Below are positions 6,419-56,049 of a stretch of 56,049 bases of DNA, piece by piece (position 1 is the first letter of the stretch; each line of letters starts with the position of its first letter). Source of the DNA: Gammaproteobacteria bacterium (GTDB lineage: Bacteria; Pseudomonadota; Gammaproteobacteria; Steroidobacterales; GCA-2729495); assembly GCA_003695765.1 (NCBI GenBank), contig RFHQ01000201.1, forward strand, positions 1-56,049. Reading direction: 5' to 3'. The translations under genes were made by a program, and so were the position numbers. Under the pieces are notes generated by a model that ran no database searches, had not been told where the DNA came from, and worked only from the letters and a program-made list of their open reading frames with translations.

Positions 6419-7351
6419 TCAGAAGTGCACGGTCGGCGGGGCGTTGACGGCGGACCAGGCCTCGTAGGGCACGAAGGTCTTCGCCAGCATGTCCCAGAAC
6501 AGCTGGTCCTCCAGCCAGCGGCGCCGCATGCGGTCCTGGGCCGCCAGTTCGACCTCGCCGAAGGGTTGCTGCACCCGGCGCGACAGGATCTCGAAATAGC
6601 TGTCGACGACCGCGCGATACAGTTCGCTGGCCAGCGCGAAGGTCGGGCGGTCGGCGCGCAGCTTCGGTCCATACATGCTGATGCCGGTGCAGGTGCTCAG
6701 CCGGTGCCACTTCCACATGCCGGCATTGGGTTTGCCGCAGCCACGCGAGCGGTAGCGGTCGCTCGGCAGGCCATGCGCCTGCAGCACGGCCGAGACCCGC
6801 TCGCGCATCAGCTGCAGGTCTTCCTCGGGCTGCGCACTCTGCATCATGTCCAGTGTCGCGCCGATGTTGCCGACGCCCTTGGAGGACACCTGCACCGACA
6901 GGGTGGCATGCAGCATGCCGACCAGCGGCGTGCGCGGATGCACTGCCACCTCGATGAAGCGGTTCCAGCGAAGCCCGTTGATGAACGGCGGTTTCTCCAC
7001 CGTCGTGCGCACGGTCATCAGGCCGGCCTTTTCGATCACGTCGCCACGGTGCACGCGGACCTCGTAGTGGCCGTTCTCCGGAAAGTCCCAGGCGAAGGAT
7101 TCCTCGCGGCTATGGCCGTGGTTGAAGGCATCGACCCGTTGCCAGAAGTCCGATTCCAGCGAGGCCATGAAGTCGAGCATCGCCTGCGCGACGGCCGCCT
7201 GTTCGTCGGTCAGCGCCGCCAGATCGTCGCCCGGCTCCGCCGCGGCAGCCGGCTCGGCGAGATCGCCGGGTTCGGCCGCGGCAGCCGGCAGGCCGGCGCC
7301 GAGCAGCAGGGCCATGAGGGTGCAAACGGAAGTCTTTGCCAACATCGTCAT
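6419..7351 (-). CDS. exported coproporphyrinogen III oxidase (HemF)-like protein
   Basis: The 310-residue product has a signal peptide (TSVCTLMALLLGAGLPAAAA) and an AEPGD-containing low-complexity linker. Residues from about 65 resemble aerobic coproporphyrinogen oxidase: an FEKAG-like VIEKAGLM, then EVAVHPRTPLVGMLHATLSV matching the HP.NP.VP..HAN region of HemF, and near the end YRAVVDSYFEILSRR and RRRWLEDQLFWDM like the VERR...RRGRYVEFNL region. The usual GGGGRSR and WWFGGG.DLTP segments are not apparent. HemF is normally cytosolic, so an exported copy is odd. I would call it a divergent paralogue, perhaps without the classical decarboxylase activity. Confidence 0.55.
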   Translation of the reverse strand: MTMLAKTSVCTLMALLLGAGLPAAAAEPGDLAEPAAAAEPGDDLAALTDEQAAVAQAMLDFMASLESDFWQRVDAFNHGHSREESFAWDFPENGHYEVRVHRGDVIEKAGLMTVRTTVEKPPFINGLRWNRFIEVAVHPRTPLVGMLHATLSVQVSSKGVGNIGATLDMMQSAQPEEDLQLMRERVSAVLQAHGLPSDRYRSRGCGKPNAGMWKWHRLSTCTGISMYGPKLRADRPTFALASELYRAVVDSYFEILSRRVQQPFGEVELAAQDRMRRRWLEDQLFWDMLAKTFVPYEAWSAVNAPPTVHF

Positions 7352-7384: not shown

Positions 7385-8014
7385 CTAAACCGAAACGCCC
7401 GGCGCTGCCGCCGCTTTGGGTTCGGTGGCCGGGACGCCGGCCGCGGCCAGCCTGGCCTCAAGATCCTCGATCCGGTCCTGTCCCCAGAACGGCTCGCCGT
7501 CGAAGAGCATCGTCGGTACGCCCCAGTGGCCGGCAGCGCGGAGGCATTCCGCATTGCGCTCACAGCGGGCCAGCCATCGCGGTTCGGCCAGCGCCTGCTC
7601 GCACTGGCGCCAGTCCAGCCCGGCGGCTTGGCAGAGCGTGCGCAGTACGCGTGGCCGGCTGACATCGGCGGCTTGCGACCAGATCGCCCGTGCGCTCAGG
7701 GTCACGAACTCGCGCGCCCGGCCCAGCTCGGCGGCCAGCTCGCCGATCGCCAGACAGCGTTCGGCGCCTTCGCCGAGCGGGTCGTGCACAGGCCCGAACG
7801 GGATCCCCAGCCGGCGCGCTTCCCGCGCGGCATCACGGAGCAGGTACAGTTTCTTCGCCCGTGGCAGCGCGACGCCGCGGTTTACCATCGGCGCCACGCC
7901 ACGGTACTGCACGCGCAGCCGCCAGCGATCGGCGAGCGCGAAGACGCGCGCTGCAGCGAGGTAGGAATAGGGGCTGCGGTAAGAGAAGAAGAACTCGACG
8001 ACGGCCTCGCTCAT
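7385..8014 (-). CDS. DsbA-family / 2-hydroxychromene-2-carboxylate isomerase-like protein
   Basis: The product of 209 residues from the ATG at 8014 starts MSEAVVEFFFSYRSPYSYLA, the usual start of HCCA isomerase / kappa-class GST-like proteins, with Ser in place of the redox CXXC. VPTMLFDGEPFWGQDRIEDL near the C-terminus is the conserved cis-proline and substrate region (VP.....GE.FWGQDR). Such enzymes are glutathione-dependent isomerases of aromatic catabolism or of unknown role. The start overlaps the stop of the upstream gene (ATGA), so the two are co-translated. Confidence 0.8.
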   Translation of the reverse strand: MSEAVVEFFFSYRSPYSYLAAARVFALADRWRLRVQYRGVAPMVNRGVALPRAKKLYLLRDAAREARRLGIPFGPVHDPLGEGAERCLAIGELAAELGRAREFVTLSARAIWSQAADVSRPRVLRTLCQAAGLDWRQCEQALAEPRWLARCERNAECLRAAGHWGVPTMLFDGEPFWGQDRIEDLEARLAAAGVPATEPKAAAAPGVSV

Positions 8015-8730
8015 GGCGCCAGCCTCGCGAGCCACGCGTCGATCTGCTCCAGCCGCTCGTGGACCAAGAACCATTGGCCGGCGATGCGCACGCTCGGCAC
8101 GCTCCAGTGTCCGCGCTGTTGCAATCGGTGGCGATTGCGCGCGAGCCAGGCTTCGACTGCCGCGGTGTCGGGGAGTTGTGCGGATTCGCCCGCGCCGATC
8201 GGGGAATTCGCACCGTCGTCAGCTGATGGGTCGTCGGTCCGGGCACGCCACAACTGGCGCAGTGCCTCGACCGCGAATTCGATGCCGCGGCCCGACTGCT
8301 CGGCGGCCACGGCGCGCGACTCGTAGTGCCGCAGGCGCTCGGGGTCGGGCACCCGGCCGGCTGGTGCAGGCAGCCCGTAGCGCCGGGCCAGTCTTCGGGC
8401 ATCGAGCAGTTCATAGGCCGGCCGCACGGCCGGCTCGGGCTGGCCGCCCGCGGTCTCCCGGCGAATCAGGCGCGCATCGATCACGGCCCCGTGCCGGGCG
8501 GCGATGTTGGACAGTGCTTGCAGGGCCATCGCGCCGTAGGGGCAATCCAGCGCGTAATAGCACTCGACATGCAGCGGCCGCCGCAGCAGCCCGCTGAGGC
8601 GGGCGCCGGTCACGGCCAGGGACTCCTGCGCGCGCCAGGCGCCCAGCAGCAGGGACGGCAGCCAGCGGCGGCGCAGCCGCTCTCCGGCACGCCGCGGCAG
8701 GTCCAGCAGTTCAGCCGCATGACCGGACAT
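8011..8730 (-). CDS. DsbA-family thioredoxin-fold protein
   Basis: This 239-residue protein precedes and overlaps the HCCA-isomerase-like gene. It has an extra N-terminal basic region, then VECYYALDCPYGAMALQALSNIA: the position of the DsbA CXXC reads CPYG, so only one cysteine remains. The C-terminal HWSVPSVRIAGQWFLVHERLEQ resembles the cis-Pro/substrate region of its neighbour. The two may form a heterodimer or sequential glutathione-linked enzymes; this is inference from gene overlap and shared fold. Confidence 0.72.
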   Translation of the reverse strand: MSGHAAELLDLPRRAGERLRRRWLPSLLLGAWRAQESLAVTGARLSGLLRRPLHVECYYALDCPYGAMALQALSNIAARHGAVIDARLIRRETAGGQPEPAVRPAYELLDARRLARRYGLPAPAGRVPDPERLRHYESRAVAAEQSGRGIEFAVEALRQLWRARTDDPSADDGANSPIGAGESAQLPDTAAVEAWLARNRHRLQQRGHWSVPSVRIAGQWFLVHERLEQIDAWLARLAP

Positions 8731-8807: not shown

Positions 8808-10979
8808 ATGGAGCAACCGCGGATTGCCGACACGCGTCCGGCGAAGCGCCGGCTGGCCGCCGGGCGCACGGTCTACTGGTGCCGCTGCGGGCGTTCGCGA
8901 CAGCAGCCGTTCTGCGACGGCTCGCATGCGGGCACCGGTTTCGAGCCACTCGCCTTCACGCCGGAGGAGGATGACGAGTATTTCCTCTGCCAGTGCAAGC
9001 GCACGGCCAGGCCGCCGTTCTGCGATGGTTCGCACAAACGCATCGCGCAGGAGGAACTGGACGCGCAGGCCGGCTTCCGCACCATCTGGCACCGGCTCGC
9101 CGGCGCTGCCGAGCTGGCCGACGGCGAAAGTCGGGCCGTGCAGGCCGGCCGGCGCGCGCTGGTGCTGGTCCGCATCGGCGAGCAGTATGCGGCACTGGAC
9201 GCCCGTTGCCCGCACCGCGGCGGGCCGCTGGCCGACGGCGAGCTGCTGCGCGACGCTGCGGGCCGTCACTGCCTGCGCTGCCCCTGGCACGGTTCGGATT
9301 TCGATGCGCTGACCGGCCACCCGCCGGGCGGTCAAGGGCCGGCGGTGGAGAGCTGGCCGGTCGAACTGCGCGACGACGGGGTCTACGTGGCCCTGCGCGA
9401 ACCGCTGGAAGTCCCGGCCACGGTCGCCGAGCTGCTCGCCGATACGCTCGGCGCCTGGGGACTGCAGCCGGTTTTTGCCAGCGGTGGCGCCTGGGCGGCC
9501 GCGGTGGCCGGAACCGTTGGTGGGGACGCCGATCCGGCGGATCGCGACTGGCTGGAATTACCGGATCCGGCCGCGGCCGCTGCGGCCGCCGCGACTTTCG
9601 CCCGCCTGAGCGGCGGACCGGCGGCCTGTGCGGGCCCGGCCGTGATCTGGCCGGCGCTGCTGACCGCGGCCGGCGGTTCGGCTGCGGTGCTCGCGATCGT
9701 CGAGCGCCGGCCCCCGGGCCTCGGTGCGCCCGCTGAGCCGGATGCCCCGGTTCCGGAGCCGCCGCTGTTCGAATGGCCGGCCCGCGATGGATCGGATCTG
9801 GCCGACACGATCGGCCGAGCCTGCCGGGCCGCGAGCCTGCGGCGTGGGCCGGCGTTGCTGGTGCTGCCGGCGGCAGGGCGATCGCGGGCGCCGGCCGGCG
9901 AGCAGCGAAGCGGCTCGCCGGCGGGCCGGATCTGGAATCCGCCGCTCGCCCCGGCGCCGGAATCGGTGGCCGCGCTCGGACGCCGCCTGCAGGCCGCGCA
10001 GCGCCCGGCGATCGTCGTCGGCGACGGCGCCGGCATTTCCGCGGCGGCCCTCGTCGAGCTCGCCGACAGGCTGGGCGCGCCGGTGCTGACCAGCCGGATG
10101 GCGAAGGGCAGCATGCCGGAAACCGATCCGCTGTCCGCCGGCGTGCTGGGCCGCGGCGGCACACCGGTCGCGGCCTGGTGCCTGCGCGAGGCCGACCTGC
10201 TGTTGCTGTTCGGCGCCTGCCCGCCGGCACTGGCCGGGCTGGACTGGCTGGCCGAGATCGTCCAGGTCGACGCCGATGTCGCGCGGCTCGGCGCACTGCG
10301 CCCGGTTGCAGAGGCGCTGCCGGCCGATCCGGGCCGCACCGCGGCCGAACTGGCCCGCGGCCTGGGCCCGGCCGATCGCGATGCTCCATGGCGGCGCGCC
10401 GTGGCAGCCCGGCGCGCGGCCTGGCAGGCGGAGAAAACGCGGCTGGCGGCGGGCGGCAAGCGTGACCGGCCGGAGGTGGCGCTGTTCGAGCGGCTCGGCC
10501 GGTGCCTGCCGGCCGAGGCGGTGCTGGTCGTCGACCTGGGTGCCGGCAACGATGGGTTCACCCGCTATTTCGATTGCCGCGAACAACGGGTCCTGCTGCC
10601 GGCCGGCGACGAGTCGCAGGCTTTCGGTTTGCCGGCGATGATCGCTGCGTCCCTGGCCACGCGCAGCATCCCGTCGCTGCGCGGCCGGCCGGTGATCGGG
10701 CTCAGCAGCCGCGAGCATTGCCTGGCGCAATGGGCGAGTTTTGTGACGGCCGCGCGGCTGGCGCTGGACCTGACGCTGATCGTGCCCGGCGAGCTGCAGC
10801 CGACGGGCCTGGACCCCGGTCGGCCGGCGGCGTTGGTGGCGCAGCCGCCGCTGGCCGATTGGGCGAGTGAGGTCGGCGCAAGCGGGCGGCGGCTCGCCGG
10901 GCTCGACGAACTGGAGGCCGCGCTGCGCGGACCGGCCACCGGCGGGACGGTACTGCTGGAGCTCGGACGCCGGCACTGA
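8808..10979 (+). CDS. multidomain fusion: two CDGSH Fe-S motifs, Rieske domain and degenerate ThDP-enzyme fold
   Basis: The product is 723 residues from the ATG at 8808. Residues 25-40 and 61-76 are two mitoNEET-type sites (CRC...FCDGSH and CQC...FCDGSH), each able to hold a [2Fe-2S] cluster by 3Cys-1His. Residues 100-195 form a Rieske ferredoxin domain with C134-x-H136 and C158-P-W-H161. Residues 205-720 follow the acetolactate-synthase/pyruvate-oxidase layout: Pyr domain (VAELLADTLGAWGLQPVFASGG), central domain (AAQRPAIVVGDGAGISAAAL), PP domain (AFGLPAMIAASLAT). But the catalytic-glutamate position (HEE in relatives) reads LPDPA near 251-255, the GDG cofactor motif reads GLSS near 631-634, and the Asn pair reads GE near 661. 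ThDP catalysis is probably lost. Expected cytosolic; three 2Fe-2S centres suggest electron transfer. No named function. Confidence 0.85.
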   Translation: MEQPRIADTRPAKRRLAAGRTVYWCRCGRSRQQPFCDGSHAGTGFEPLAFTPEEDDEYFLCQCKRTARPPFCDGSHKRIAQEELDAQAGFRTIWHRLAGAAELADGESRAVQAGRRALVLVRIGEQYAALDARCPHRGGPLADGELLRDAAGRHCLRCPWHGSDFDALTGHPPGGQGPAVESWPVELRDDGVYVALREPLEVPATVAELLADTLGAWGLQPVFASGGAWAAAVAGTVGGDADPADRDWLELPDPAAAAAAAATFARLSGGPAACAGPAVIWPALLTAAGGSAAVLAIVERRPPGLGAPAEPDAPVPEPPLFEWPARDGSDLADTIGRACRAASLRRGPALLVLPAAGRSRAPAGEQRSGSPAGRIWNPPLAPAPESVAALGRRLQAAQRPAIVVGDGAGISAAALVELADRLGAPVLTSRMAKGSMPETDPLSAGVLGRGGTPVAAWCLREADLLLLFGACPPALAGLDWLAEIVQVDADVARLGALRPVAEALPADPGRTAAELARGLGPADRDAPWRRAVAARRAAWQAEKTRLAAGGKRDRPEVALFERLGRCLPAEAVLVVDLGAGNDGFTRYFDCREQRVLLPAGDESQAFGLPAMIAASLATRSIPSLRGRPVIGLSSREHCLAQWASFVTAARLALDLTLIVPGELQPTGLDPGRPAALVAQPPLADWASEVGASGRRLAGLDELEAALRGPATGGTVLLELGRRH

Positions 10980-11077: not shown

Positions 11078-12313
11078 ATGCGCAGCGCGAAGCGGGTCGT
11101 GCTGGCCGCGGCCGTGGCGGTCGCCGGCCCGGTGGCGGTCGCCGGTCCCGGCGATACGCTGGCGACGGCTATCGGCAACGGCCGCGTGACGCTGGATTTC
11201 CGCTACCGCTACGAGTTTGCCGACGACGAACCCTTCGCGCGCGACGCACACGCGCACAGCTTGCGCTCCCGGCTCGGCTTCGCACCGGCGCCGCTGGGCG
11301 ACTGGCGCCTGTTCGTCGAATTCGACGACGTCAGGCACATCGGCAACGACCGTTTCAACGATACGCGCAACGGCAAGGTCGACCGCCCGCAGGTGCCCGA
11401 TCCGGAAGGCACGGACCTGAACCAGTTCTGGCTGCGTTATCTCGGCATCGATTCGCTCGCGATCGGCTTCGGCCGTCAGCGCATCGAGCGCGGCCGGCAG
11501 CGCTTCGTCGGCGGCCATGGCTGGCGCCAGAACGAGCAGACCTTCGACAGCCTGAGCATCGACTGGACGCCGCCGGCGCCGTACCGGCTGAGCTACGCCT
11601 ATATCTTCTCCGTCAACCGCATCTATGGGCCGGAGCGCGGTGCCCCGGCGCGGGACCTCGATACCCGGATCCACCTGCTGGACGGGCGCTGGCGCTTCGG
11701 CCCGCTGCTGGAACTCGGCGCTTTCGTCTACCTGATGGACTTCGACAATGCACCGACCCTGTCCAACGCCACCATCGGCATCAGCGCCGATGGTGCGGCT
11801 GCGCTGCGCAGTGGCTGGCGCCTGGACTACAGCCTGCAGTTCGCATCCCAGCGGGACCATGGCAGTAGCCGCGTCCGCTTCGCCGCGGACTACCTGTTGC
11901 TGGAGGGCCGCCTGCACTGGCAGCCCTGGCGCGCGAGTCTGGCGCTGGGCTACGAGGTTCTCGGCAGCGCCGACGTGACCGGCGGCGGCTTGCGGACGCC
12001 GCTGGCCAGCCTGCACCGCTTCCAGGGCTGGGCCGACCGCTTCGCCGCGGCCAGCAGTTTCGGCCTCAACGACGGGATCCGCGACCTGTACTTCGCGGCC
12101 CAGTGGCGCTGGCGGAACGGCGAATTCCAGCTGCGGGTCCACGACTTCGGATCCGACCGCCGCAGCCGCGACTGGGGCAGCGAACTGGACCTGTCGGCTG
12201 CCTGGACCTTCCGCGAGCGCTTTCGCCTGCTGCTCAAATACGCGGGTTTCGATGCCGAAGAATTCGGTGGCGACCTGAGCAAGTTCTGGCTGCAGTTCGC
12301 TGCCGGCTTCTAG
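11078..12313 (+). CDS. outer-membrane beta-barrel protein (alginate-export/porin-like)
   Basis: The 411-residue product starts with a signal peptide (VVLAAAVAVAGPVAVA) and continues with alternating amphipathic strands, ending in the aromatic LQFAAGF typical of BamA-recognised barrels. Segments FRYRYEFADDEPF, SLRSRLGFAPAPLGDWRLFVEFDDVRHI, IGFGRQRIERGRQRFVGGHGWRQNEQTFDSL and DYLLLEGRLHW resemble the alginate-export domain family of large porins, in which the GRQ...WRQN.QTFD segment is conserved. Likely role is outer-membrane passage of an unknown solute. Its TAG stop shares CTAG with the convergent next gene. Confidence 0.82.
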   Translation: MRSAKRVVLAAAVAVAGPVAVAGPGDTLATAIGNGRVTLDFRYRYEFADDEPFARDAHAHSLRSRLGFAPAPLGDWRLFVEFDDVRHIGNDRFNDTRNGKVDRPQVPDPEGTDLNQFWLRYLGIDSLAIGFGRQRIERGRQRFVGGHGWRQNEQTFDSLSIDWTPPAPYRLSYAYIFSVNRIYGPERGAPARDLDTRIHLLDGRWRFGPLLELGAFVYLMDFDNAPTLSNATIGISADGAAALRSGWRLDYSLQFASQRDHGSSRVRFAADYLLLEGRLHWQPWRASLALGYEVLGSADVTGGGLRTPLASLHRFQGWADRFAAASSFGLNDGIRDLYFAAQWRWRNGEFQLRVHDFGSDRRSRDWGSELDLSAAWTFRERFRLLLKYAGFDAEEFGGDLSKFWLQFAAGF

Positions 12314-13584
12314 CGCCGCCGGCCGGCCGTGAACTCCCAGCTCAGGGTCAGCTGGACCCGGTCTTCGGTGGTATCGCGCGGCAGCCCGTGGAACACCCAG
12401 GCGCAGGCCGCCTGCCGGCAATGCCGGCTCTCGATGCGCAGGTACTCGGCGCCGATGCGCAGCGTCGGCCGGAACCGGTACAGCCAGGCGACGGCCAGCA
12501 CATTGCCCTTGTCCTGGTTGGTGATGCCGGGGGGGTCGTTGTACGGCTGCAGGTCGAACCACTCGTAGCGGGCCGTCAGTCGGTGCTCTCCGAAGCGCCG
12601 TGTCAAGGCCAGGTAACTGGCATCGAAGAGCAGGTCCTGCACCCGCCACGGGCCGAGGTCTTCGCCCATGCGCGTCTTGCCGTCCAGCCACTGCGCCAGC
12701 AGGCCGAAGCCGGCCGGCAACGCGAGCTGCAGGCCCAGGTGATTGAACCAGGTCTCCCAGGCATACAGCCCGTTGGCCGTCTCGGCCTCGGGATCGGCGT
12801 GGTTGTCGTAGAAGAAATACTTCAGGCGCAGCCGTTCTTCCCATTGCCAACTGGCGCCGGCATAGAAGCCGGGGCGATGGTCGACTTCTTCGAAGGGCGG
12901 AAATCTGGCCGGCGGTTGCCCGTCTTCGCGCCACGGCTCGATGACCGAGACTGTGGGCATCGGCACCTTGCCGAAAAGGCCGGTCTGGCGATCGTGGGCC
13001 GACCAGCCGCGCCAGGCCAGCAGGCCGCCGAGCGGATCGTTGCCGAAGAACATCGCGCCTTCGATGCTCAGCTGGTGCTGCGGATGGCGCTGCAGCCGCC
13101 GGCTCAGCGTCAGCTCCAATCCCAGCGTGCGCAGCTCCTCGCCGATCCAGGTGTTGATCGCCGAGGCCGACAGCGCGTAGCGATTGCTCCAGGCCGGCTC
13201 GCCGTGCTCCAGCGAGAGGCGCGGGTAGAAGGCCCCGAACCGCCCGCGCAGGCGCCAGGCGCTGGCCGGCAGCGGACGCCAGGCGAGGTAGGCCTCGGTC
13301 AGGTCCAGCTTTTCGGACACGGTGTCGTTGAAGTTCACGACGGCGTGCAGGAACCAGTTCGGTGTCAGCCGGCCGCGGTAGTCGGCGAACAGCCGGCTCG
13401 GCCTGAGCCCGTCGTGATCGCCGTCGAATCGCAGCTTGCCGTTGCCGTGGTGCAGCCAGGACGGCAGCTCGCTGCCGGCGGCGACCAGCGCGAGATCGGC
13501 GCCGATCACCAGCCGGTGGCGATCGATCTCGCCGGCGATCGCGCTGGCGCAGGCCAGGCCCAGCAGCAGCAAGCCGTGCTTCAT
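12310..13584 (-). CDS. outer-membrane beta-barrel protein, unknown family
   Basis: The product has 424 residues from the ATG at 13584 (TTG at 13587 also possible) with a short signal peptide (GLLLLGLACASAIA). Many alternating aromatic strands follow (LRLKYFFYDNHAD, HRLTARYEWFDLQPYN, VAWLYRFRPTLRIGAEYLRIE), ending in LTLSWEFTAGRRR. It resembles phosphate-selective or TorF-type porins in length and texture, but I cannot assign a family. Its start overlaps the stop of the cupredoxin gene by one base, so the two are co-expressed and may act as a secreted copper protein with its outer-membrane partner. Confidence 0.75.
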   Translation of the reverse strand: MKHGLLLLGLACASAIAGEIDRHRLVIGADLALVAAGSELPSWLHHGNGKLRFDGDHDGLRPSRLFADYRGRLTPNWFLHAVVNFNDTVSEKLDLTEAYLAWRPLPASAWRLRGRFGAFYPRLSLEHGEPAWSNRYALSASAINTWIGEELRTLGLELTLSRRLQRHPQHQLSIEGAMFFGNDPLGGLLAWRGWSAHDRQTGLFGKVPMPTVSVIEPWREDGQPPARFPPFEEVDHRPGFYAGASWQWEERLRLKYFFYDNHADPEAETANGLYAWETWFNHLGLQLALPAGFGLLAQWLDGKTRMGEDLGPWRVQDLLFDASYLALTRRFGEHRLTARYEWFDLQPYNDPPGITNQDKGNVLAVAWLYRFRPTLRIGAEYLRIESRHCRQAACAWVFHGLPRDTTEDRVQLTLSWEFTAGRRR

Positions 13585-14219
13585 CAATATTCGTCCCAGG
13601 CCAGCGCGTCGTCGCCCCCCGGGGCCGGCGCGCTGCGCAGGCGCCGGTCCAGCGCGAGCTGCAGGCTCAGATCGCGGCCGCCGATGTCGACCGGGCCCAG
13701 CGCGACCGCGTTCAGCGGATCCAGGCGCGGCGACCAGGCATGCAGCCGGTAGCGGCCGGCCGGCAGGCCGGTGAGCCTGAGTTCGCCGCCGGCATCGGTG
13801 ATCCCGAAGTGCGGCGTCGGCACGACCACGATGTAGCCGAGCATCGAGTCGTGGATGTTGCAGCCGATCACGACGATGCCGGGCTCGTCGAAGCGCACGG
13901 CCGGCACCAGGTCGTCGCGGTACAGCGGCAACTCGAAGGCGTTCGGGCGGTTGAAGGAGTAGACGTGGTGGCTCACCTGGTCTTCGTTCGGAAACTCCAC
14001 CGTCGTGCCCGCCTGCACGACGGCGATCGCCGGGATGAAGCGCTTGTCTTTCTGCCGGATCGTGAAACGCCGGTCGGCGCTCAGCGCCTGTCGGCCGACG
14101 AGATAGACGACCGTGTCGCTGGCGGCGTCACCGGCGGCGTCACGCAGGCGTAGCTGCAGGTCGGCCGCCTGCGCTGCGATCGTGAAAATCGCCAGGCAGC
14201 CGCACACGATGAGCCGCAT
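13584..14219 (-). CDS. periplasmic cupredoxin-like protein (MauL-like methylamine-utilisation family)
   Basis: The 211-residue product carries a signal peptide (VCGCLAIFTIAAQAA). A cupredoxin segment follows: FPNEDQVSHHVYSF supplies His (84 or 85), and VIGCNIHDSMLGYIVV supplies Cys120, His123 and Met126, the expected type-1 copper set. The region after about 135 looks like a carboxypeptidase-regulatory beta-sandwich (GELRLTGLPAGRYRLHAWSP). Relatives are often annotated methylamine utilisation protein, but no methylamine dehydrogenase genes lie nearby. It has a GGAGGGA site 7 bases before the ATG and is divergent from a c-di-GMP phosphodiesterase gene. Confidence 0.85.
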   Translation of the reverse strand: MRLIVCGCLAIFTIAAQAADLQLRLRDAAGDAASDTVVYLVGRQALSADRRFTIRQKDKRFIPAIAVVQAGTTVEFPNEDQVSHHVYSFNRPNAFELPLYRDDLVPAVRFDEPGIVVIGCNIHDSMLGYIVVVPTPHFGITDAGGELRLTGLPAGRYRLHAWSPRLDPLNAVALGPVDIGGRDLSLQLALDRRLRSAPAPGGDDALAWDEY

Positions 14220-14348
14220 CGCGGGTCCCTCCGCGCAATCCTCCGTCGGCAGGCTAGCGGCACCCGGGCGCTGGCGCCGTGAGCGGAGTCACATTATGTC
14301 AGGTCGCGCTTCGCTACCCTGAACCTCCTTCCGGACCGCGAAACGGCG

Positions 14349-16703
14349 ATGCACAGCCTGCGCAGCAAAGTCCTGCTGATCGCTTCGGCGCTGATCCTGG
14401 TGACGGAGCTAGCCAGCGTCAGCCTGATCCTGTACCTGGCGCGCCAGGACGTCGCCGCGCGCGCGGTCCGTAGCCTGGCGGCCGCGGGCGAGGTCTACCG
14501 GCAGCATGCGCGCCAGCGGGCCGGGCAACTCAGTGCCGCGGCCGGCACCGTGGCGGCCGATTACGGGCTCAAGCAGGCAGTGGCCAGCGGCGACGCGCCG
14601 ACGATCCGGTCGGCGCTCGCGAATCACGCCCACCGGGCCGGCGCCAGCCTGGCGCTGCTGCACCGGCTCGACGGCTCGCCGGTCGCGGCCACGGGCGATC
14701 CGGCGCTGGCCGGGCACTTCCGGCCCGCGGCCGACGCCGACCCCGCCGTGCCGCAGCATGGCCTGTTGCTGTCCGGCGGGCAGGGTTTCGAGACCTACAC
14801 GGTCGCGCTGCGCGCGCCCTTGCCGGTGGCCTGGGTGACGCTCGGCTATCCACTGGACGACCGTTACGCCCGGGACCTGGCGGCGCTGACCGGGCAGGAT
14901 GTCAGCCTCGTCGCGCGGCTCGCCGGCGGCAGTCGCTGGCTCGCCTCGTCCCGGCCGCCCGCCGACCGGCGGCGCTGGTCGGCGGCGGCGCTCGAGCGCG
15001 CGCTCGCCGGCGCAGGCGAGATCGCCGTCGACGGCGATCGCATCCTGGTCGCGGCCAGCCCGCTGCTGCCCGCGGATCCACGGCTGCAGCTGCTGTTCAG
15101 CCGCTCGCTCGCGGCCGCGATGGAGCCTTACGAGCTGCTGCGCTCGGCCGCGCTGCTGCTGGCCGCGATTCCGCTGCTGATCGGGATCGTCGGCGCCTGG
15201 TGGCTGGCCGGGACCGTCGCGGGACCGGTCGAATTGCTGACTCGGGCGGCCCGGCGCATGCAGTCCGGCGACTACGGCAGGCCGGTCGATCTCAGCAGTG
15301 ACGATGAGTTCGGGCAGCTCGCCTCGGCCTTCAACGCGATGCAGGCCGGCATCGCCGAGCGCGAGCGGCGCATCCTGCACCAGGCTCGGCACGATGGGCT
15401 GACCGGGTTGCCGACGCGCGATCGCCTGCTGGAGCGGCTGGGCGACCTGCTGGCCGGTCCCGAGCCGCCGGACTCGGTCGCGGTCGTCAAGATCCTGCTG
15501 AACGCCTTCGTCGATATCAGCGAGTCGCTCGGTCATGACATCGCCGATGCCTACGTCCGCCAGGCCGGCGCCCAGCTCAACACGCTGCTGATGCAACGGG
15601 GCTGGCTGGCGCGCAGCGAAAGCGACGTGTTCATCGCGGTCCTGCCGGGCATCGACGCCACGAGCGCAGAGGGTTTCGCGGCCGAACTGAGCCGCTCGCT
15701 GGCGGCCGGCGTCGCGTTGCGTGAACTGACGGTGCCGGTCCGGCCCGCCCTGGGCATCGCCGTCGCGCCCGAGAACGGCTCGCGACCCGAGCAACTGCTG
15801 CTGCGCGCGAGCATCGCCGCCAGTCGCGCGGCCGAGACCGGACTGGCTTGCCAGCGCTACCGCCGCGGCGACGAGGAGCAGCGCGTGCGCCGCACCCGGA
15901 TCGTCGCCGAACTGCGCAAGGCCTTGCAGGATGGGCAGCTATCGCTGCGCTTCCAGCCGAAGCTGCGCATGCGGGACGGCAAGCTGATCGGCGCGGAAGC
16001 GCTGTTGCGCTGGGAGCACCCGGACCTCGGGCCGGTCAGTCCCGCGGAGTTCATCCCGATCGCCGAGCGGTCGGGCAGCATCGGCGCGCTGACCCGCTGG
16101 GTGCTGGAGACCGCGATCACGGAGTGCCGGCTCTGGGAGGAAGCGGGCCTGGTGCTGGCCGTGTCGGTGAACCTGTCGCCGGCGGACCTGCTCGATCGCG
16201 AACTGCCGTGGCTGGTCGCCGACTGCCTGCGTGGCCGCGATCTCGGCGCGTCGCGGCTGATCGTCGAGGTGACCGAGGAGGCGATCGTGCGCAACTTCAA
16301 GCAGGCCGTGGCCGTGCTGGAGCAGATGCGGCAGGCGGGCGTGCGCGTGTCGATGGACGATTTCGGCACCGGCTATTCTTCGCTGGCGCAACTGAAACGG
16401 CTGCCGATCGACGAGCTGAAGATCGACCGCAGCTTCGTGACCGGACTGCCGGCGGCTGAGACCGACTGCGCCATCGTCAAGGCCGTCATCAGTCTCGCGG
16501 ACAGCCTCGGCCTGTCGCTGGTCGCCGAAGGTGTCGAGACCGCCGAGGCATGGGCATGGCTGCGCCGCCAGGGCGCCGGGATCGCGCAGGGTTACGCGAT
16601 CAGCCGGCCGCTGGTCGGCGAAGAGTTCCTGCGCTGGGCCAGCTCGGGCCCGGCGGTGCCCGGCGGCGGCGCGCCCGCGTCCGCCGGGCCGGGTGCCGCC
16701 TGA
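14349..16703 (+). CDS. membrane sensor with HAMP, degenerate GGDEF and intact EAL domain (c-di-GMP phosphodiesterase)
   Basis: The 784-residue protein has an N-terminal membrane helix (VLLIASALILVTELASVSLILYL), a periplasmic sensor of about 225 residues, a second helix (LLLAAIPLLIGIVGAWWLAG), then HAMP (GPVELLTRAARRMQSGDY). The GGDEF domain reads SESDV at 423-427, so cyclase activity is unlikely. The EAL domain is complete: E550-A-L, NLSPADL, EVTEEAI, DDFGTGYSSLAQL from 670, KIDRSFV and VAEGVET. It should hydrolyse c-di-GMP in response to a periplasmic cue. It is transcribed away from the cupredoxin gene across 129 bases; the cupredoxin could influence its sensor domain, which is inference. 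Confidence 0.92.
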   Translation: MHSLRSKVLLIASALILVTELASVSLILYLARQDVAARAVRSLAAAGEVYRQHARQRAGQLSAAAGTVAADYGLKQAVASGDAPTIRSALANHAHRAGASLALLHRLDGSPVAATGDPALAGHFRPAADADPAVPQHGLLLSGGQGFETYTVALRAPLPVAWVTLGYPLDDRYARDLAALTGQDVSLVARLAGGSRWLASSRPPADRRRWSAAALERALAGAGEIAVDGDRILVAASPLLPADPRLQLLFSRSLAAAMEPYELLRSAALLLAAIPLLIGIVGAWWLAGTVAGPVELLTRAARRMQSGDYGRPVDLSSDDEFGQLASAFNAMQAGIAERERRILHQARHDGLTGLPTRDRLLERLGDLLAGPEPPDSVAVVKILLNAFVDISESLGHDIADAYVRQAGAQLNTLLMQRGWLARSESDVFIAVLPGIDATSAEGFAAELSRSLAAGVALRELTVPVRPALGIAVAPENGSRPEQLLLRASIAASRAAETGLACQRYRRGDEEQRVRRTRIVAELRKALQDGQLSLRFQPKLRMRDGKLIGAEALLRWEHPDLGPVSPAEFIPIAERSGSIGALTRWVLETAITECRLWEEAGLVLAVSVNLSPADLLDRELPWLVADCLRGRDLGASRLIVEVTEEAIVRNFKQAVAVLEQMRQAGVRVSMDDFGTGYSSLAQLKRLPIDELKIDRSFVTGLPAAETDCAIVKAVISLADSLGLSLVAEGVETAEAWAWLRRQGAGIAQGYAISRPLVGEEFLRWASSGPAVPGGGAPASAGPGAA

Positions 16704-16773: not shown

Positions 16774-17736
16774 ATGTCCAGCGCCGAAGCCGCCGCTCAC
16801 GAGCAGCCGATACTCAGCATTCGCCAGGCCGCCAAGCGCCTCGGCGGCTGGCCGGCGCTGCGCGGCGTCGACCTGACGCTGTTTCCCGGCGAAATCCTCG
16901 TACTGCTAGGGCCCAACGGCGCCGGCAAGAGCACGCTGCTGTCGGCCGCCTGCGGCCGGCTGGCGCTGGATACCGGTACCGTGTCGCTGGCCGGCGAGGA
17001 TCCGCGCCGCGTCGCCGGGGTGCGCGCGCAGCTCGGCTTCGTGCCGCAGCATCTCGCGGTCTATCCGTATCTGACCGTCCGGGAAAATCTCGAAGTCTTC
17101 GGGCGCATGATGGGCGTACCGCGGAGCGCCCTGCCGGCGCGAGTGCGCGAAGCCGCCGCCTGGGCGGGGCTGAGCGGCCGCCTCGACGCGCACAGCGACG
17201 CACTGTCCGGTGGCATGCGGCGGCGGCTGAACATCGTCGCCAGCCTGCTGCACCGCCCGCGCGTGCTGCTGCTGGACGAGCCGACCGTCGGCGTCGACAT
17301 GGATGCCCGCGAACGCGTGCACGAGTTGTTGCGCCGCCTGCGCGACGACGGACTCGGCGTGCTGCTGACGACCCACGACCTGGCCCAGGCCGAGGCGCTG
17401 GCGGATCGCGTGCTCGTCATGCTCGACGGCCGGATCCGGCTGGCCGGATCGCCAGCGCAGCTCGTCGAGAGCGAGTTCCATGGCATGCAGGAGCTCAAGC
17501 TGGTGCTGCGCGAGGTGCCAGACGCGCCAGGCCGGGCGCTGTTGCGTTCCCTGGACCTGCGCCCGGCACGCGGTGAGCTCGCTTGGACCGGGCCGGTGGC
17601 CGGTGACTTCTCCCGGCTCGGTGAGCTCGACGCACGCCTGCGCGAGGTCGGCTTGACGCCGGCGGAATTGCGCGTGCGCGCGCCCGGTCTCGAAGGCGTA
17701 CTGCTGCGTGTGACCGGAGAGGAGATCGGCCCGTGA
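16774..17736 (+). CDS. ABC transporter ATP-binding protein
   Basis: The 320-residue ATPase shows Walker A (GPNGAGKST), Q-loop (GFVPQHLAVYPYLTVREN), signature LSGGMRRRLNIV, Walker B (VLLLDEPTVGVD) and the switch His (LLTTHDLAQAE). It belongs to the ABC-2/DrrA-like export group. The chosen ATG begins MSSAEAAAHEQP; the same frame is open further upstream into the EAL gene. Its TGA overlaps the GTG start of the permease, forming a two-gene exporter. Substrate unknown (drug, lipid or polysaccharide are common for the group). Confidence 0.93.
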   Translation: MSSAEAAAHEQPILSIRQAAKRLGGWPALRGVDLTLFPGEILVLLGPNGAGKSTLLSAACGRLALDTGTVSLAGEDPRRVAGVRAQLGFVPQHLAVYPYLTVRENLEVFGRMMGVPRSALPARVREAAAWAGLSGRLDAHSDALSGGMRRRLNIVASLLHRPRVLLLDEPTVGVDMDARERVHELLRRLRDDGLGVLLTTHDLAQAEALADRVLVMLDGRIRLAGSPAQLVESEFHGMQELKLVLREVPDAPGRALLRSLDLRPARGELAWTGPVAGDFSRLGELDARLREVGLTPAELRVRAPGLEGVLLRVTGEEIGP

Positions 17737-19031
17737 GCGTCGCGATCTTCCGTGCCATGCTGCTCGGCCTGCTGCGTGATCGCGGCGCGCTGCTGATGAG
17801 TTTCGTCCTGCCGGCGGTGTTCTTCGTGATCATGGCGGAAATCTTCACGGCCACGACAGGCGACACGCTGAACCTCGACGTGGCGGTTGTCGACGAGATC
17901 GGCGACGATACCTCGACGCGGCTGCTCGCGGCACTGGAGCAAAGCCCGGCGCTGCGCATCGAACGGCTCGGCGGCGCCGGCGAGGCCGCGCGCCGGACCT
18001 TGCGCGAGCGGGTGCGGCGTGGGCTGGCCGATGTCGGCCTGCTGTTGCGGGCCGATGCCGAGCCATTGGATTCCGCCGGCGGCTTCGGGCCGGAACCGAT
18101 CGTGATCTACAGCGATCCGGCGCGGGCCGTGGCCGTGCCGATGCTGGTCGGCCGGATCCGCCAGGCCTATTTCGGCGCGCTGCCCGATGTGGCCATGGGC
18201 AATGTCGTCGCGGAACTGGAAAACCAGTTCCTGACGCTGACCGAGGAACAGCACGCGGAGCTGGCCGAAGGGCTGGCCGAACTGCGCGAAGATGCCGAGG
18301 CCGGCCGCAGCAGCGGCTGGTCCTTCGAGGACATGCTGGCCTTCGAGCCGGTGGCCGGTGACGGCGGGCGGCTCAGCCTCGTGGCCTACTCAGCCGGCGC
18401 CGTGGCCTTCATGTTCCTGCTCTTCGCCTCGGTGCATGGCGCGGTCTCGCTGCTGGAAGAGCAGGAGAACGGCGTGCTGGACCGCGTGCTCGCCGGCCCC
18501 GGCGGCATCGGCGTGCTGGTCAATGGCAAATTTCTCTACCTGGTCCTGCAGGGGGTGTTGCAGGTCGCGGTGATCTTCGGTGTCGGCTGGCTCGGTTACG
18601 GCCTGGATCTGCCGGGCCATTTCCTGCCATGGCTGCTGGTGACGCTGGTGGCCGTTGCCTGCGCGTCGGCGCTGGCGATGCTGCTGGCCACGGCCTGCAC
18701 GACGCGTCGCCAGGCGCAGACGATCGCAAATACGGCGATCCTGATCGTCTCGGCACTGGGCGGCAGCATGGTGCCGCGGATCTTCATGCCGGAATCGCTG
18801 CAGCAGCTCGGCTGGCTGACGCCGAACACCTGGGCGCTGGAAGCCTACAGCGGCATCTTCTGGCGCGAAGACCCGCTGATCGAGATCCTGGCGCCAATGG
18901 GGGCAATGTTCGGCACAGCGCTGCTGGCCTGGCTGGCGGCGAACGCGGTCGCCCAGCAGCGCATGTACGGTCGGGCGACGCGCTTGCGACCGACCCGCCG
19001 CACCGGGGACCAACTGCTCGGCAAGGGCTGA
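17733..19031 (+). CDS. ABC-2 type transporter permease
   Basis: The 432-residue membrane protein starts at GTG within the ATPase stop (GTGA). One N-terminal helix (LLMSFVLPAVFFVIMAEIFTA) is followed by a periplasmic domain of about 200 residues, then five or six helices (SAGAVAFMFLLFASVHGA, FLYLVLQGVLQVAVIFGVGW, LVTLVAVACASALAMLLATA, ILIVSALGGSMVPRIFMPE). This is the YhhJ/NatB-like ABC2_membrane_3 layout. The motif GGSMVP and ...LTPNTWALEAYSGIFWRE are usual for the family. With the adjacent ATPase it forms an exporter. Confidence 0.92.
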   Translation: MSVAIFRAMLLGLLRDRGALLMSFVLPAVFFVIMAEIFTATTGDTLNLDVAVVDEIGDDTSTRLLAALEQSPALRIERLGGAGEAARRTLRERVRRGLADVGLLLRADAEPLDSAGGFGPEPIVIYSDPARAVAVPMLVGRIRQAYFGALPDVAMGNVVAELENQFLTLTEEQHAELAEGLAELREDAEAGRSSGWSFEDMLAFEPVAGDGGRLSLVAYSAGAVAFMFLLFASVHGAVSLLEEQENGVLDRVLAGPGGIGVLVNGKFLYLVLQGVLQVAVIFGVGWLGYGLDLPGHFLPWLLVTLVAVACASALAMLLATACTTRRQAQTIANTAILIVSALGGSMVPRIFMPESLQQLGWLTPNTWALEAYSGIFWREDPLIEILAPMGAMFGTALLAWLAANAVAQQRMYGRATRLRPTRRTGDQLLGKG

Positions 19032-19716: not shown

Positions 19717-20394
19717 ATGAAACTCTACGGTGCGCTCGCTTCCCCCTATGTCGCTCGCGTGGTGATGTTCGCCCGCATCAAGGGCCTGGAACTGGAGCCG
19801 GCCGGCATTCCCGGCGACTCGCCGCGTTCCGCCGAGTACCTCGCGATCAACCCGATCGGCAAGATCCCGAGCCTGGCAGTCGACGGCCAGTGCATCGCCG
19901 AATCGGAGGTGATCTGCGAATACCTCGAAGACGCCGCTGGCGGCCGGCCCGGACTGCCGTCCGATCCATTGCAGCGCGCGACCTCGCGGCTGACCGGCCG
20001 CATCGTGGATCTGTATATCGCCACGCAGGTCAGTACCTTCTTCCGTCAGATGAACCCGGCGAACCGCGACCAGCAGCAGCTCGACGAGGCGGCCGCTGCG
20101 CTGGAGAAAGGCTTCGGCTATCTCGAGCACTTCATGGGCCCGGGGCCGTTCTGCGTGGCCGACCAGCCGACGCTGGGCGATTGCGCGGCGGCGCCGTATT
20201 TCATGCTGATCAAGAAGACCGTGTTCGCGAATTTCGAGCGGCCGGCCGATCCGACCTCCGGCGACGGGCGCCTGGCCCGCTGGTGGCAGGCGGTCATGGG
20301 CAACGAGGACTGCCGCAGCGTGGTCGATGCCTACGGTGCCGCGGTCGATGCCTTCATGCAGGCGATGGCGGCCCGGACGCAGGGGCGGTCCTAA
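19717..20394 (+). CDS. glutathione S-transferase family protein
   Basis: The 225-residue product begins MKLYGALASPYVARVVMFAR, the N-terminal thioredoxin-like domain with Ser/Tyr candidates, and shows the hallmark INPIGKIPSLAVDG..IAESEVICEYLED (cis-Pro and the glutathione gamma-glutamyl-binding ESE). The C-terminal helical domain has the N-capping box ADQPTLGDCAAAPYF. It is probably cytosolic; the electrophilic substrate is unknown. Its TAA overlaps the stop of the convergent MBL gene (CTAA). Confidence 0.92.
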   Translation: MKLYGALASPYVARVVMFARIKGLELEPAGIPGDSPRSAEYLAINPIGKIPSLAVDGQCIAESEVICEYLEDAAGGRPGLPSDPLQRATSRLTGRIVDLYIATQVSTFFRQMNPANRDQQQLDEAAAALEKGFGYLEHFMGPGPFCVADQPTLGDCAAAPYFMLIKKTVFANFERPADPTSGDGRLARWWQAVMGNEDCRSVVDAYGAAVDAFMQAMAARTQGRS

Positions 20395-42569: not shown

Positions 42570-43592
42570 TCAGAGTTCCGGGCCGAGCGTGGCGGCGATC
42601 AGGCGAATCGATTCCTCCGGGTCGTCGTAGAGGCGCAGCGCGAGCTCATCTATCCCGGCGGCCTTGAACTCCAGGCAACGTTCCACGGCCCGGTCGATAT
42701 CACCGTGGTCGCCGCAGAAGGTGAGTTCCTCGACCAGCTTGTCGACCAGCGCTGCCGGCAGGTCGTCGATGTCGGGCCGGTCCTCGACATAGGCCCGGAT
42801 GATGCCGGCCATGTTGTTCTCGACCAGCGCCACCTCCGCCGGCTCGAGGAACGGCTCGATGTACCAGCGCCCGACCATGCCGCGGACCCAGAGCTTGCGG
42901 CGCGCCTCGGCGGCCGCTTCGGCCCGGTCTCGCTTGACGTGCCAGGCGTAGAGGTTGTTCAGGCGCGGCCGGCCGGGCCGTTCACGCCGGGGCAGGGCAT
43001 CGGCCACGATTTGCATGGTTTCTGCCAGGCGCCCGGCGGTCAGGTCGCTGAACATCACGCCGTCGGCGACCTCGACGGCCATGCGCAGCATCTGCGCGCG
43101 CGTGGCGCCGACGTAGACCAGCGGTGCCGGTTGTGCGGCCGCCCAGCGTGCATGGTAGCCATCGACCTGGAACAGCTCGCCACGGTGGTCGACGGGCTCG
43201 CCACTGGCCGCGAGACGCAGGAACTGCACGCACTCTCGCACGCCGTGCACCATCCGCGGGAACATGCTCGCGCGCCCGGCCTTCAGGTGCATCGCGATCG
43301 TCGTGCCACCACCACCGCCGACGACGAGGCTGGCGCGGCCGCCGGCGAATTCGTTCAGCGTCAGCAGCGAGTTGGCCATTTTCAGCGGATGCAGTTCGAA
43401 GGGACTGATCGCGACCGGCCCGACGCGGATCGCCGAGGATTCCCGGGCCAGCAGGCAAAAGGTCAGGAACGGGTCCCGGGCCGCCGGGTGGTTGGCCGTC
43501 CAGGCGGCGTCGAAGCCGAGCTCTTCGGCCAGGCGTCCGAGGCGCAGGAATTCCTCAGCCGACGCGGGCTCGAAGATCAGCTGGATGCGCAA
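42570..43592 (-). CDS. LLM-class flavin-dependent oxidoreductase
   Basis: The 340-residue bacterial-luciferase-like TIM barrel begins at TTG 43592 (MRIQLIFEPASAEEFLRLG). Family features: FDAAWTANHPAARDPF, VGPVAISPFELHPLKMAN, LTLNEFAGGRASLVVGGGGG, and VADGVMFSD. It probably uses FMNH2 from the flavin reductase encoded 5 bases upstream to oxygenate an unknown substrate. It is closely similar along its whole length to the truncated gene at 55076-56049 (shared GRLAE, SRDPF, LTLNE.AGGRA, QMLRMA, RFLEPA). F420 use cannot be excluded. Confidence 0.92.
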   Translation of the reverse strand: MRIQLIFEPASAEEFLRLGRLAEELGFDAAWTANHPAARDPFLTFCLLARESSAIRVGPVAISPFELHPLKMANSLLTLNEFAGGRASLVVGGGGGTTIAMHLKAGRASMFPRMVHGVRECVQFLRLAASGEPVDHRGELFQVDGYHARWAAAQPAPLVYVGATRAQMLRMAVEVADGVMFSDLTAGRLAETMQIVADALPRRERPGRPRLNNLYAWHVKRDRAEAAAEARRKLWVRGMVGRWYIEPFLEPAEVALVENNMAGIIRAYVEDRPDIDDLPAALVDKLVEELTFCGDHGDIDRAVERCLEFKAAGIDELALRLYDDPEESIRLIAATLGPEL

Positions 43593-54132: not shown

Positions 54133-55076
54133 GCGAACTGCGCTTCGGCATGCCGATCCCGCAGGTCTTCCTCGACGGGCGGGCCGATATGGCGCTGGTA
54201 CGCGACGTGCTTCGGCGCGGCGAGCAGCTGGGTTACGAGAGTGCCTGGGTGCAGGATCAGGTGGCTGGCGAGACGCCGCTGCTGGAGTCGGTCGGTCTGC
54301 TCTGTTACGCAGCCGCGGTGACCGAACGGTTGCGGCTCGGCGTTTCGGTGATCGTGTTCCCGATTCGCAATGCGGTGCAGCTCGCGAAGAATTTTTCCTC
54401 GCTCGATCACATGAGCAACGGCCGTGCGATTCTCGGCATCGGCCTCGGCCCGGTGTTCGCCGGCGATCACTACTACCGGATCTTCGGCACCCGCGCGAAC
54501 GAGGCCTTGCGGCGCTTCAACGAGGGTCTGGACGTGCTGCGCCGGCTGTGGACCGAGGAGGTCGTGGATTTCGCCGGCGAGTTCTACCAGCTCGAGCAGG
54601 CACGGATGGAGCCCAAGCCCGTGCAGCAGCCGCTGCCGATCTGGTTCGGGGCCCAGCATCCCGACGCGCTGCGGCGCACGGCGCTCAAGGCCGACGGCTA
54701 CATGGGCGCGGGCCCGACGACGACAGCGGACTTCGCGCGCAACGTCACGCTGTTGCGGCGTTTTCTCGACGAGGCCGGCCGCGATCCGCAGAGCTTCCCG
54801 ATCTCCAAGCGCGTGTATCTCGCGATGGATTCGCAACGGCCGGAGCGTGGCAAGCAGCGTCTCGACGAGTTCTTCGCCGCGCGCTACCCGTGGCAGATCG
54901 AGGCCAATCCCGATTTCGTCGCCGATATCTGCTACTGGGGTGGCCCGGAGCAGGTGGCCGACGGCTTGCGCGAAGTGGTCGCGGCCGGCGCGGAGATGAT
55001 CGTGCTGAACCCGCTGTGGGATTTCGTCGAGCAGCTCGAGATGCTGGCCGAGGAGGTCATCCCGCTGCTCAACTGA
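54129..55076 (+). CDS. LLM-class flavin-dependent oxidoreductase
   Basis: The 315-residue protein starts at GTG inside the previous stop. It has [101 protein letters not shown] and [29 protein letters not shown]. It is a different subtype from its two neighbours. TGATG overlap with the following gene shows translational coupling of all three. Confidence 0.93.
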
Positions 55077-56049
55077 TGGACGTCGACCTGATTTTGGACG
55101 CGCGCGCCAGCGCCGACGAGCTGCTCGAGCTCGGCCGGCTGGCCGAGGCGCAGGGCATCCGCGGCATCTGGGTGTCCAGCCTGCTGGATTCGCGCGATCC
55201 GTTCACGAATCTCGCGCCGCTGGCCCGGACCACCGAGCGCCTGCTGCTGGGGCCGGTCGCGGTCAATCCCTTCGACACCCACCCGGTGAAGATCGCCGCG
55301 GCCTGGCTGACACTGAACGAGCTGGCCGGCGGGCGCGCTCGGATCGTGATCGGCGGTGGCGGCGAAGCGCTGGCAGCGCTCGAAATCCAGCCGGACCGCC
55401 GGGTTCGGTCGGTTGCCGAGTGCGTCGAGATCCTGCGCGCGGCCGCCAGTGGCGAGACCGTCGATTACGATGGCGAAATGTACCGGGTGCATGGGCTGCG
55501 CCTGGGCTGGTTGAGAGCGCTGGCGCCGCCGGTGCATGTCGGCGCGAACCAGGCACAGATGCTGCGGATGGCCGCGCGCGTAGCGGACGGCATCATGCTC
55601 AGTGACATGCCGGAGAACCTCGCCGCCGAGGCCATCGCGACGCTGGATGCGGCGCTGGCCCGGCACGGCAGGTCGCGCCCCGACTTCGCAACCAACATGT
55701 TCACCGCCTGGCATGTCTATGCCGACGCCCGGGCTGCGCGCGCCGAAGCCCGCCGCTGGCTGCTACTGCGCGGAATCTTCCGGCCGTGGTTGCTGGAGCG
55801 TTTTCTGGAGCCGGCCGACGTGGCGCTGGTGATGGAAAACCAGGAAGCCTTCGTCGCCGCGTTTCGTCGCGGCAGCGCCGAGGTCGACGGCGTGCCTGAC
55901 CGCGTGCTCGATGCGCTGGTCGACCACATTACGCTCTGCGGCGGTCTCGACGATCTGCCACGGATCTGTGCCCGGCTGCGGGCCTGCGCGGAGGCCGGTC
56001 TCGCGGCCGTGTCGCTGCGGCTCTATGCCGAGCCGGCCGAGAGCATCCG
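55076..56049 (+). CDS. LLM-class flavin-dependent oxidoreductase (3' end outside window)
   Basis: The ATG at 55076 overlaps the previous stop; the frame stays open to the window end, giving 324 codons so far with no stop. Sequence: LILDARASADELLELGRLAEA, LDSRDPFTNLAPLA, LLLGPVAVNPFDTHPVKIA, LTLNELAGGRARIVIGGGGE, VHVGANQAQMLRMAARVADGIMLSD, WHVYADARAAR, RFLEPADVALV. It is a paralogue of the LLM at 42570-43592, nearly complete here (that one has 340 residues). Confidence 0.92.
   Translation, partial: MDVDLILDARASADELLELGRLAEAQGIRGIWVSSLLDSRDPFTNLAPLARTTERLLLGPVAVNPFDTHPVKIAAAWLTLNELAGGRARIVIGGGGEALAALEIQPDRRVRSVAECVEILRAAASGETVDYDGEMYRVHGLRLGWLRALAPPVHVGANQAQMLRMAARVADGIMLSDMPENLAAEAIATLDAALARHGRSRPDFATNMFTAWHVYADARAARAEARRWLLLRGIFRPWLLERFLEPADVALVMENQEAFVAAFRRGSAEVDGVPDRVLDALVDHITLCGGLDDLPRICARLRACAEAGLAAVSLRLYAEPAESI

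Follow-up and report, generated by a model that had tools for sequence, protein, structure and literature searches.

A gammaproteobacterial orthologue of a CDGSH-Rieske-thiamine diphosphate enzyme family that has lost its ThDP motifs and kept its 2Fe-2S ligands

The window, i.e., the whole 56,049-nucleotide stretch of DNA analysed here, comes from a draft genome of 222 contigs and carries a 723-aa open reading frame at 8808–10979 on the forward strand, running from an ATG at 8808 to a stop codon at 10979, with no internal stops and no frameshifts. Two CDGSH sites lie at its N-terminus, at residues 25–40 (C25, C27, C36, H40; 8880–8927, + strand) and 61–76 (C61, C63, C72, H76; 8988–9035, +), and a Pfam search matches them to zf-CDGSH as two stretches (69 bits). 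The motifs are ~20 residues apart, each with three Cys and one His, which is the arrangement of tandem-CISD (type 6 CDGSH) proteins, and the best solved-structure match of the N-terminus, second site included, is the tandem CDGSH protein 3tbn (3.3e-23). A Rieske site follows at residues 134–161 (C134, H136, C158, H161; 9207–9290, +; Pfam Rieske, 53.6 bits). All 12 cluster ligands were verified as retained, and the remainder of the protein finds its best solved-structure matches in acetolactate synthases and pyruvate oxidases. Pfam, the ligands, and the structure matches thus bear out the original prediction that two CDGSH sites, one Rieske site, and an acetolactate-synthase-like module are united in a single 723-residue protein.

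The latter module comprises a degenerate PYR (TPP_enzyme_N) domain (residues 201–370; 9408–9917, +), a middle (TH3/TPP_enzyme_M) domain (residues 371–520; 9918–10367, +), and a degenerate PP (TPP_enzyme_C) domain (residues 556–723; 10473–10976, +). The PYR domain scores 19.4 bits, below the Pfam TPP_enzyme_N cutoff of 26.8 bits; the middle domain is the best-kept part of the module and passes its own cutoff (85.6 bits), and TPP_enzyme_C finds no Pfam match in the protein. In an alignment with 79 relatives, (i) the catalytic Glu (standard position 51), present as E in 79/79 relatives, is replaced by P254 (9567–9569), (ii) the GDGG motif, each position of which is kept in 79/79 relatives, is replaced by S634-R635-E636-H637 (10707–10718), and (iii) the Asn pair, with N in 76 and 78 of the 79 relatives, is replaced by G661-E662 (10788–10793). 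All three motifs had been proposed as lost, and they are, although the GLSS originally named in place of GDG stands two or three residues ahead of what actually aligns there, SREH.

An intact Glu or GDG equivalent at a shifted position would have spoken against this loss, and none was found. The GDx...N motif (GDGX24-27N) occurs nowhere else in the protein; its sole other GDG (405–407) is in the middle-domain glycine loop, GYG in relatives, and is not followed by an Asn at the required spacing; N581 is the sole Asn of the C-terminal domain. Near the Glu site, only Asp253 and Glu250 stand directly upstream of the lost position. Compensating frameshifts were considered as a source of the lost motifs and ruled out, given that the relatives align by tblastn in one frame throughout, over the full length. 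Judged from its sequence, the protein should have lost ThDP chemistry because it has neither the activating Glu nor the diphosphate/Mg2+ motif; loss of the Glu alone would be no proof of this, since glyoxylate carboligases are ThDP enzymes that carry Val at that position (PMC3534367).

An AlphaFold2 model built with 50 relatives has a mean pLDDT of 81.5, compared with 88.8 for the intact protein of the same-genus genome G277. Superposition of model residues 201–723 by VIA-align gives Z values of ~34–35 to a ThDP-dependent synthase and pyruvate oxidases, in agreement with the ThDP-enzyme fold first proposed; the alignment behind the model contained intact relatives, such that the predicted fold cannot count as evidence separate from homology. 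The PYR-TH3-PP three-domain fold is accordingly predicted to persist. Confidence drops below pLDDT 50 at residues 237–245, 307–315, and 663–678, of which 307–315 corresponds roughly to a low-confidence stretch of the intact protein (310–315). The 663–678 stretch comes after the lost NN pair, in a segment that is shortened in the 723-aa protein, and the intact protein has a helix there (677–685).

Full-length, colinear homologues with intact RHEG, GDGG, and NN motifs are encoded by two members of the same genus, G277 (L006/L050; 44% identity) and G274 (L007/L052; 41%); the alignment to L006 and L007 spans residues 1–719, and in the G277 protein each of the three ThDP Pfam models scores above its cutoff. 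An initial scan of genome contigs with the 723-aa protein as query returned no match. Loci of relatives number 426 candidates in a scan of 84,980 species genomes. The best 80 of these, ranked by similarity to an intact query such that degenerate copies could rank lower, gave 79 proteins under a filter requiring GDG, which alone could not reveal a loss; a single locus outside the filter (L122) likewise carries HEG and GDGG...NN. At least one exact CDGSH motif lies ahead of the Rieske site in 21 of these 79 relatives from the best 80 of 426 loci (20 besides the G277 copy), and at least 20 other genomes, two of them of the same genus, encode the CDGSH2-Rieske-ThDP order with intact motifs. Rieske-ThDP proteins without CDGSH sites are found in Alpha-, Beta-, and Gammaproteobacteria, in other phyla to judge by record titles, and on plasmids of haloarchaea and mycobacteria, whose records call them "thiamine pyrophosphate-binding protein" (e.g., Halorubrum plasmid NZ_CP053942).

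The degenerate form was looked for across these relatives. Among 19 other matches in 396 genomes of the order and 3 other matches in 274 genomes of the class, a few of them partial and readable in part, no full-length relative shows the same degeneration; none was found on plasmids either, as far as these are annotated. In a full-length tree, the 723-aa protein sits on an unusably long branch, and a CDGSH tree was unresolved, with the row of the 723-aa protein probably incomplete, and was left out of account.

The original prediction regarded the combination as a new type of protein. This does not hold, because the architecture is that of a widespread enzyme family of which the 723-aa protein is one degenerate member: the genome listing of same-order proteins recovered intact members in at least 20 other genomes, with the Rieske-ThDP core in hundreds of candidate loci. 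The 723-aa protein is a degenerate orthologue of the family annotated as "thiamine pyrophosphate-binding protein," an uncharacterised Rieske-ThDP family with or without the CDGSH pair (e.g., L050, L052, L056, NZ_CP053942), with which it shares domain order; the members examined keep their catalytic motifs, whereas the 723-aa protein has not. The further statement that no characterised example is known stands within the literature searched, where neither a characterised member of the CDGSH2-Rieske-ThDP architecture nor a paper on a dead ThDP-enzyme fold of comparable type was found.

The surroundings of the gene place it at the site of the intact copy. An ABC transporter ATPase gene (16774–17736, +) matches at 71% the gene L042_8537-9505, directly downstream of the intact gene in G277; an ABC-2 permease gene (17757–19031, +), likewise a synteny marker, matches L042_7207-8526 at 81%, and a glutathione-S-transferase-like gene (19717–20394, +), a marker common to G274, G275, and G277, matches genes in L042, L043, and L045 at 66–74%. 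Altogether, orthologues of the genes starting at 16774, 17757, 19717, 20391 (metallo-hydrolase-like), 21460, 22869, and 24395 follow the corresponding order next to the intact G277 gene, and most of them are found in G274 as well. Four genes (11078–16703) lie between the 8808–10979 gene and these markers and are missing there in G277. The neighbours being conserved in order, the 8808–10979 gene corresponds by position to the intact gene, as an orthologue changed where it stood; an assembly chimera is unlikely, because the contig itself bears markers in synteny with the genus. A second, intact copy was sought in the organism's own assembly, which is 92% complete and could lack one, and only other ThDP enzymes at 28–30% and the start of another CDGSH protein at a contig edge were found.

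On the other side of the gene, intact copies are adjoined by a divergent gene with a D-2-hydroxyacid dehydrogenase NAD-binding domain. Its place is occupied here by a divergent neighbour (8011–8730, −) that matches neither a Pfam family nor anything in the genus's four other genomes, and no orthologue of the dehydrogenase was found in the organism's own genome (best match, 34%). Next to this neighbour lies a DSBA-family thioredoxin-fold gene (7385–8014, −; Pfam DSBA, 91.6 bits) with ~31–32% matches in two other genus members only; the two are adjacent DsbA-like genes, 30% alike. A further minus-strand gene (6419–7315) has a weak coproporphyrinogen III oxidase likeness (28.8 bits, below cutoff) and is possibly another diverged copy. 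Elsewhere in the window, genes at 42570–43592 and 55076–56044 are of the luciferase-like monooxygenase type, which has about ten matches in the genome. The edge of another contig of this genome (G000:C184; L044, 1–104) encodes the initial 34 residues of a second CDGSH protein, 65% identical to the start of the G277 fusion; that contig lacks the remainder. In G275 (contig C5; L045, 6802–7062), only a small tandem CDGSH gene (86 aa) is present where G274 carries the CDGSH2-Rieske-ThDP gene, a luciferase-like gene adjoining both; the 86-aa gene is either a trimmed copy or an unfused ancestor.

Retention differs between the parts of the protein. Near-invariant family residues are kept at 11/11 positions in the CDGSH pair, 26/35 in the Rieske domain, 31/48 in the middle domain, 32/85 in PYR, and 24/75 in PP. 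The cluster domains together (37/46) differ from PYR plus PP (56/160) with a Fisher p of 6.6e-8, and the middle domain differs from PYR plus PP with p = 4e-4, bearing in mind that sites within one protein are not strictly independent. By these per-domain counts, the losses are concentrated in the two ThDP-binding domains. Identity to L050 follows a similar gradient (CDGSH, ~70–73%; Rieske, 50%; middle, 45%; PYR and PP, 31–32%), compared with 69–83% in the same parts between the two intact genus members. The acceleration is specific to this gene, which in this comparison is 42% identical to its G277 counterpart, as against 76% between G277 and G274; the remaining syntenic genes show roughly the same divergence either way.

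The main rival to a retained function is early gene decay, in which selection on the enzyme has been lost and chance together with high GC has kept the frame open; we regard this as unlikely, though it is the most serious of the alternatives. It would account for the disappearance of the neighbouring 2-hydroxyacid dehydrogenase from the locus and for an acceleration that affects the whole protein and not the ThDP part alone, the Rieske domain being 50% identical to its G277 counterpart versus 79% between the intact genus members. Moreover, the gene is dispensable in the genus, because G275 and G276 are without a full-length copy. Against decay stand the 12/12 cluster ligands and 11/11 near-invariant CDGSH residues, the clean frame, and a GC3 of 0.81–0.91, like that of the neighbours. 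When the ThDP part was evolved neutrally in simulation to the observed identity, a mean of 4 to 7 stops arose at equilibrium GC of 0.69–0.80 and at most 2% of runs were stop-free, whereas none is observed; at an equilibrium GC of 0.86, however, zero stops are unremarkable, because only ~2.3 are expected over the three ThDP domains (summed per-domain means). Conserved-hydrophobic positions are retained well above the neutral simulation, most clearly in the PP core (0.76 versus 0.48) and also in the middle-domain core (0.78 versus 0.61), and part of this signal may date from before function was lost. For PYR, the retention (0.61 versus 0.48) is close to neutral, with p ~0.05 at GC 0.69 and a stronger contrast at GC 0.86, and second-position GC (GC2) is raised to 0.69; raised GC2 and weak core constraint are what relaxed selection would give. 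We take these patterns to mean that selection acts on the cluster domains and the cores of PP and the middle domain and is relaxed in PYR, on the basis of one degenerate sequence, which affords neither a direct dN/dS nor proof of maintenance across species.

The explanation we favor, with moderate confidence, is that the 723-aa protein is a catalytically dead pseudoenzyme that keeps the redox half and the ThDP-fold scaffold and is the in-place orthologue of a PoxB-like enzyme. Its ancestor would have been a PoxB-like ThDP-dependent enzyme with N-terminal tandem CDGSH and Rieske domains. Intact relatives, to judge by fold, motifs, and the neighbouring gene, may oxidise a 2-oxoacid or related substrate on ThDP and pass electrons to the 2Fe-2S clusters, possibly via FAD; a neighbouring 2-hydroxyacid dehydrogenase would fit 2-oxoacid oxidation. 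The ThDP/Mg2+ site has been lost in the source lineage, as the motif replacements show, while sequence and simulation show that coding constraint persists, with all three 2Fe-2S sites kept along with the C-terminal core and a middle domain of the nucleotide-binding type. The protein would thus most likely persist in a redox or cluster-carrying role, without catalysis, on the scaffold of a ThDP fold; it is probably either a catalytically inactive relic or a redox protein put to new use, and not a new kind of protein. The one sequence may be compatible with each of electron carriage, cluster donation, FAD/ADP binding, or a loss still under way.

A more specific proposal, that the dead ThDP fold arose at this locus out of an active oxidase and is maintained by selection as a scaffold that responds to nucleotides or ligands and controls the three 2Fe-2S clusters, appears to us rather improbable. 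The middle domain carries FAD in pyruvate oxidase and acetolactate synthase relatives and ADP in oxalyl-CoA decarboxylases, and nucleotide binding by the retained middle domain is possible from its sequence. The related idea that the dead fold now senses a flavin, nucleotide, or ligand and is coupled to the clusters draws on this same domain, the best-kept part of the module (31/48), and on a fold predicted to be intact; however, the protein has no signalling output domain, and the GGDEF-EAL gene nearby (14349–16703) belongs to the block absent beside the gene in relatives, such that we give this idea little credence. That the protein is still a ThDP enzyme using shifted residues, e.g., Asp253 or Glu250 in place of a Glu at position 254, is most improbable: those residues do flank the lost Glu, and glyoxylate carboligases function with Val there (PMC3534367), but the GDG...N diphosphate/Mg2+ motif is gone with none at a shifted place, and the shortened, low-confidence segment after the NN pair stands where the intact relative forms a helix.

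The nearest solved structure to the family profile is Escherichia coli PoxB (3EYA, 5.8e-89); PoxB and the Lactiplantibacillus plantarum pyruvate oxidase (1POX) have the PYR-TH3-PP fold predicted for the 723-aa protein (Z ~34) but, unlike it, keep the Glu, GDG, and Asn motifs and are without N-terminal 2Fe-2S domains. Glyoxylate carboligase also belongs to the ThDP family and lacks the catalytic Glu; it is nonetheless active via a different mechanism (PMC3534367), whereas the 723-aa protein is additionally without the diphosphate/Mg2+ motif. With type 6 CDGSH proteins (3TBN), it has the tandem pair in common. In the available part of PMC3174974, type 6 is described as the tandem pair and type 5 as the same pair fused to a glutamate-synthase FMN domain, the latter being a parallel design in which the pair is joined to a flavoenzyme; a CDGSH pair with Rieske and ThDP-enzyme fold is not among the seven CDGSH types given in that part. 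At three loci (L046 to L048; G304:C33, G206:C139, and G167:C43), a Rieske-ThDP gene lies near a Rieske-Glu_synthase (FMN) gene, directly beside it in L048 and separated from it by a few gene calls in L046 and L047; together, these Rieske-fused cofactor enzymes may make up a single uncharacterised system. As the Rieske-Glu_synthase neighbours and type 5 CDGSH proteins share the FMN domain, CDGSH and Rieske domains appear to be redox modules that can replace one another ahead of cofactor enzymes. An Na+/H+ exchanger gene was also seen near the Rieske-ThDP gene in L047 to L049.

Ultimately, the locus presents a probable pseudoenzyme, to be set beside intact orthologues of the same genus, in which the catalytic site is lost and the redox sites are kept, and it thereby lends itself well to asking which roles CDGSH and Rieske domains have apart from ThDP catalysis. 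It further points to a widespread and apparently unstudied family in which NEET-type and Rieske clusters are combined with a PoxB-like enzyme, with 426 candidate loci in one genome collection and members on plasmids of haloarchaea and mycobacteria.
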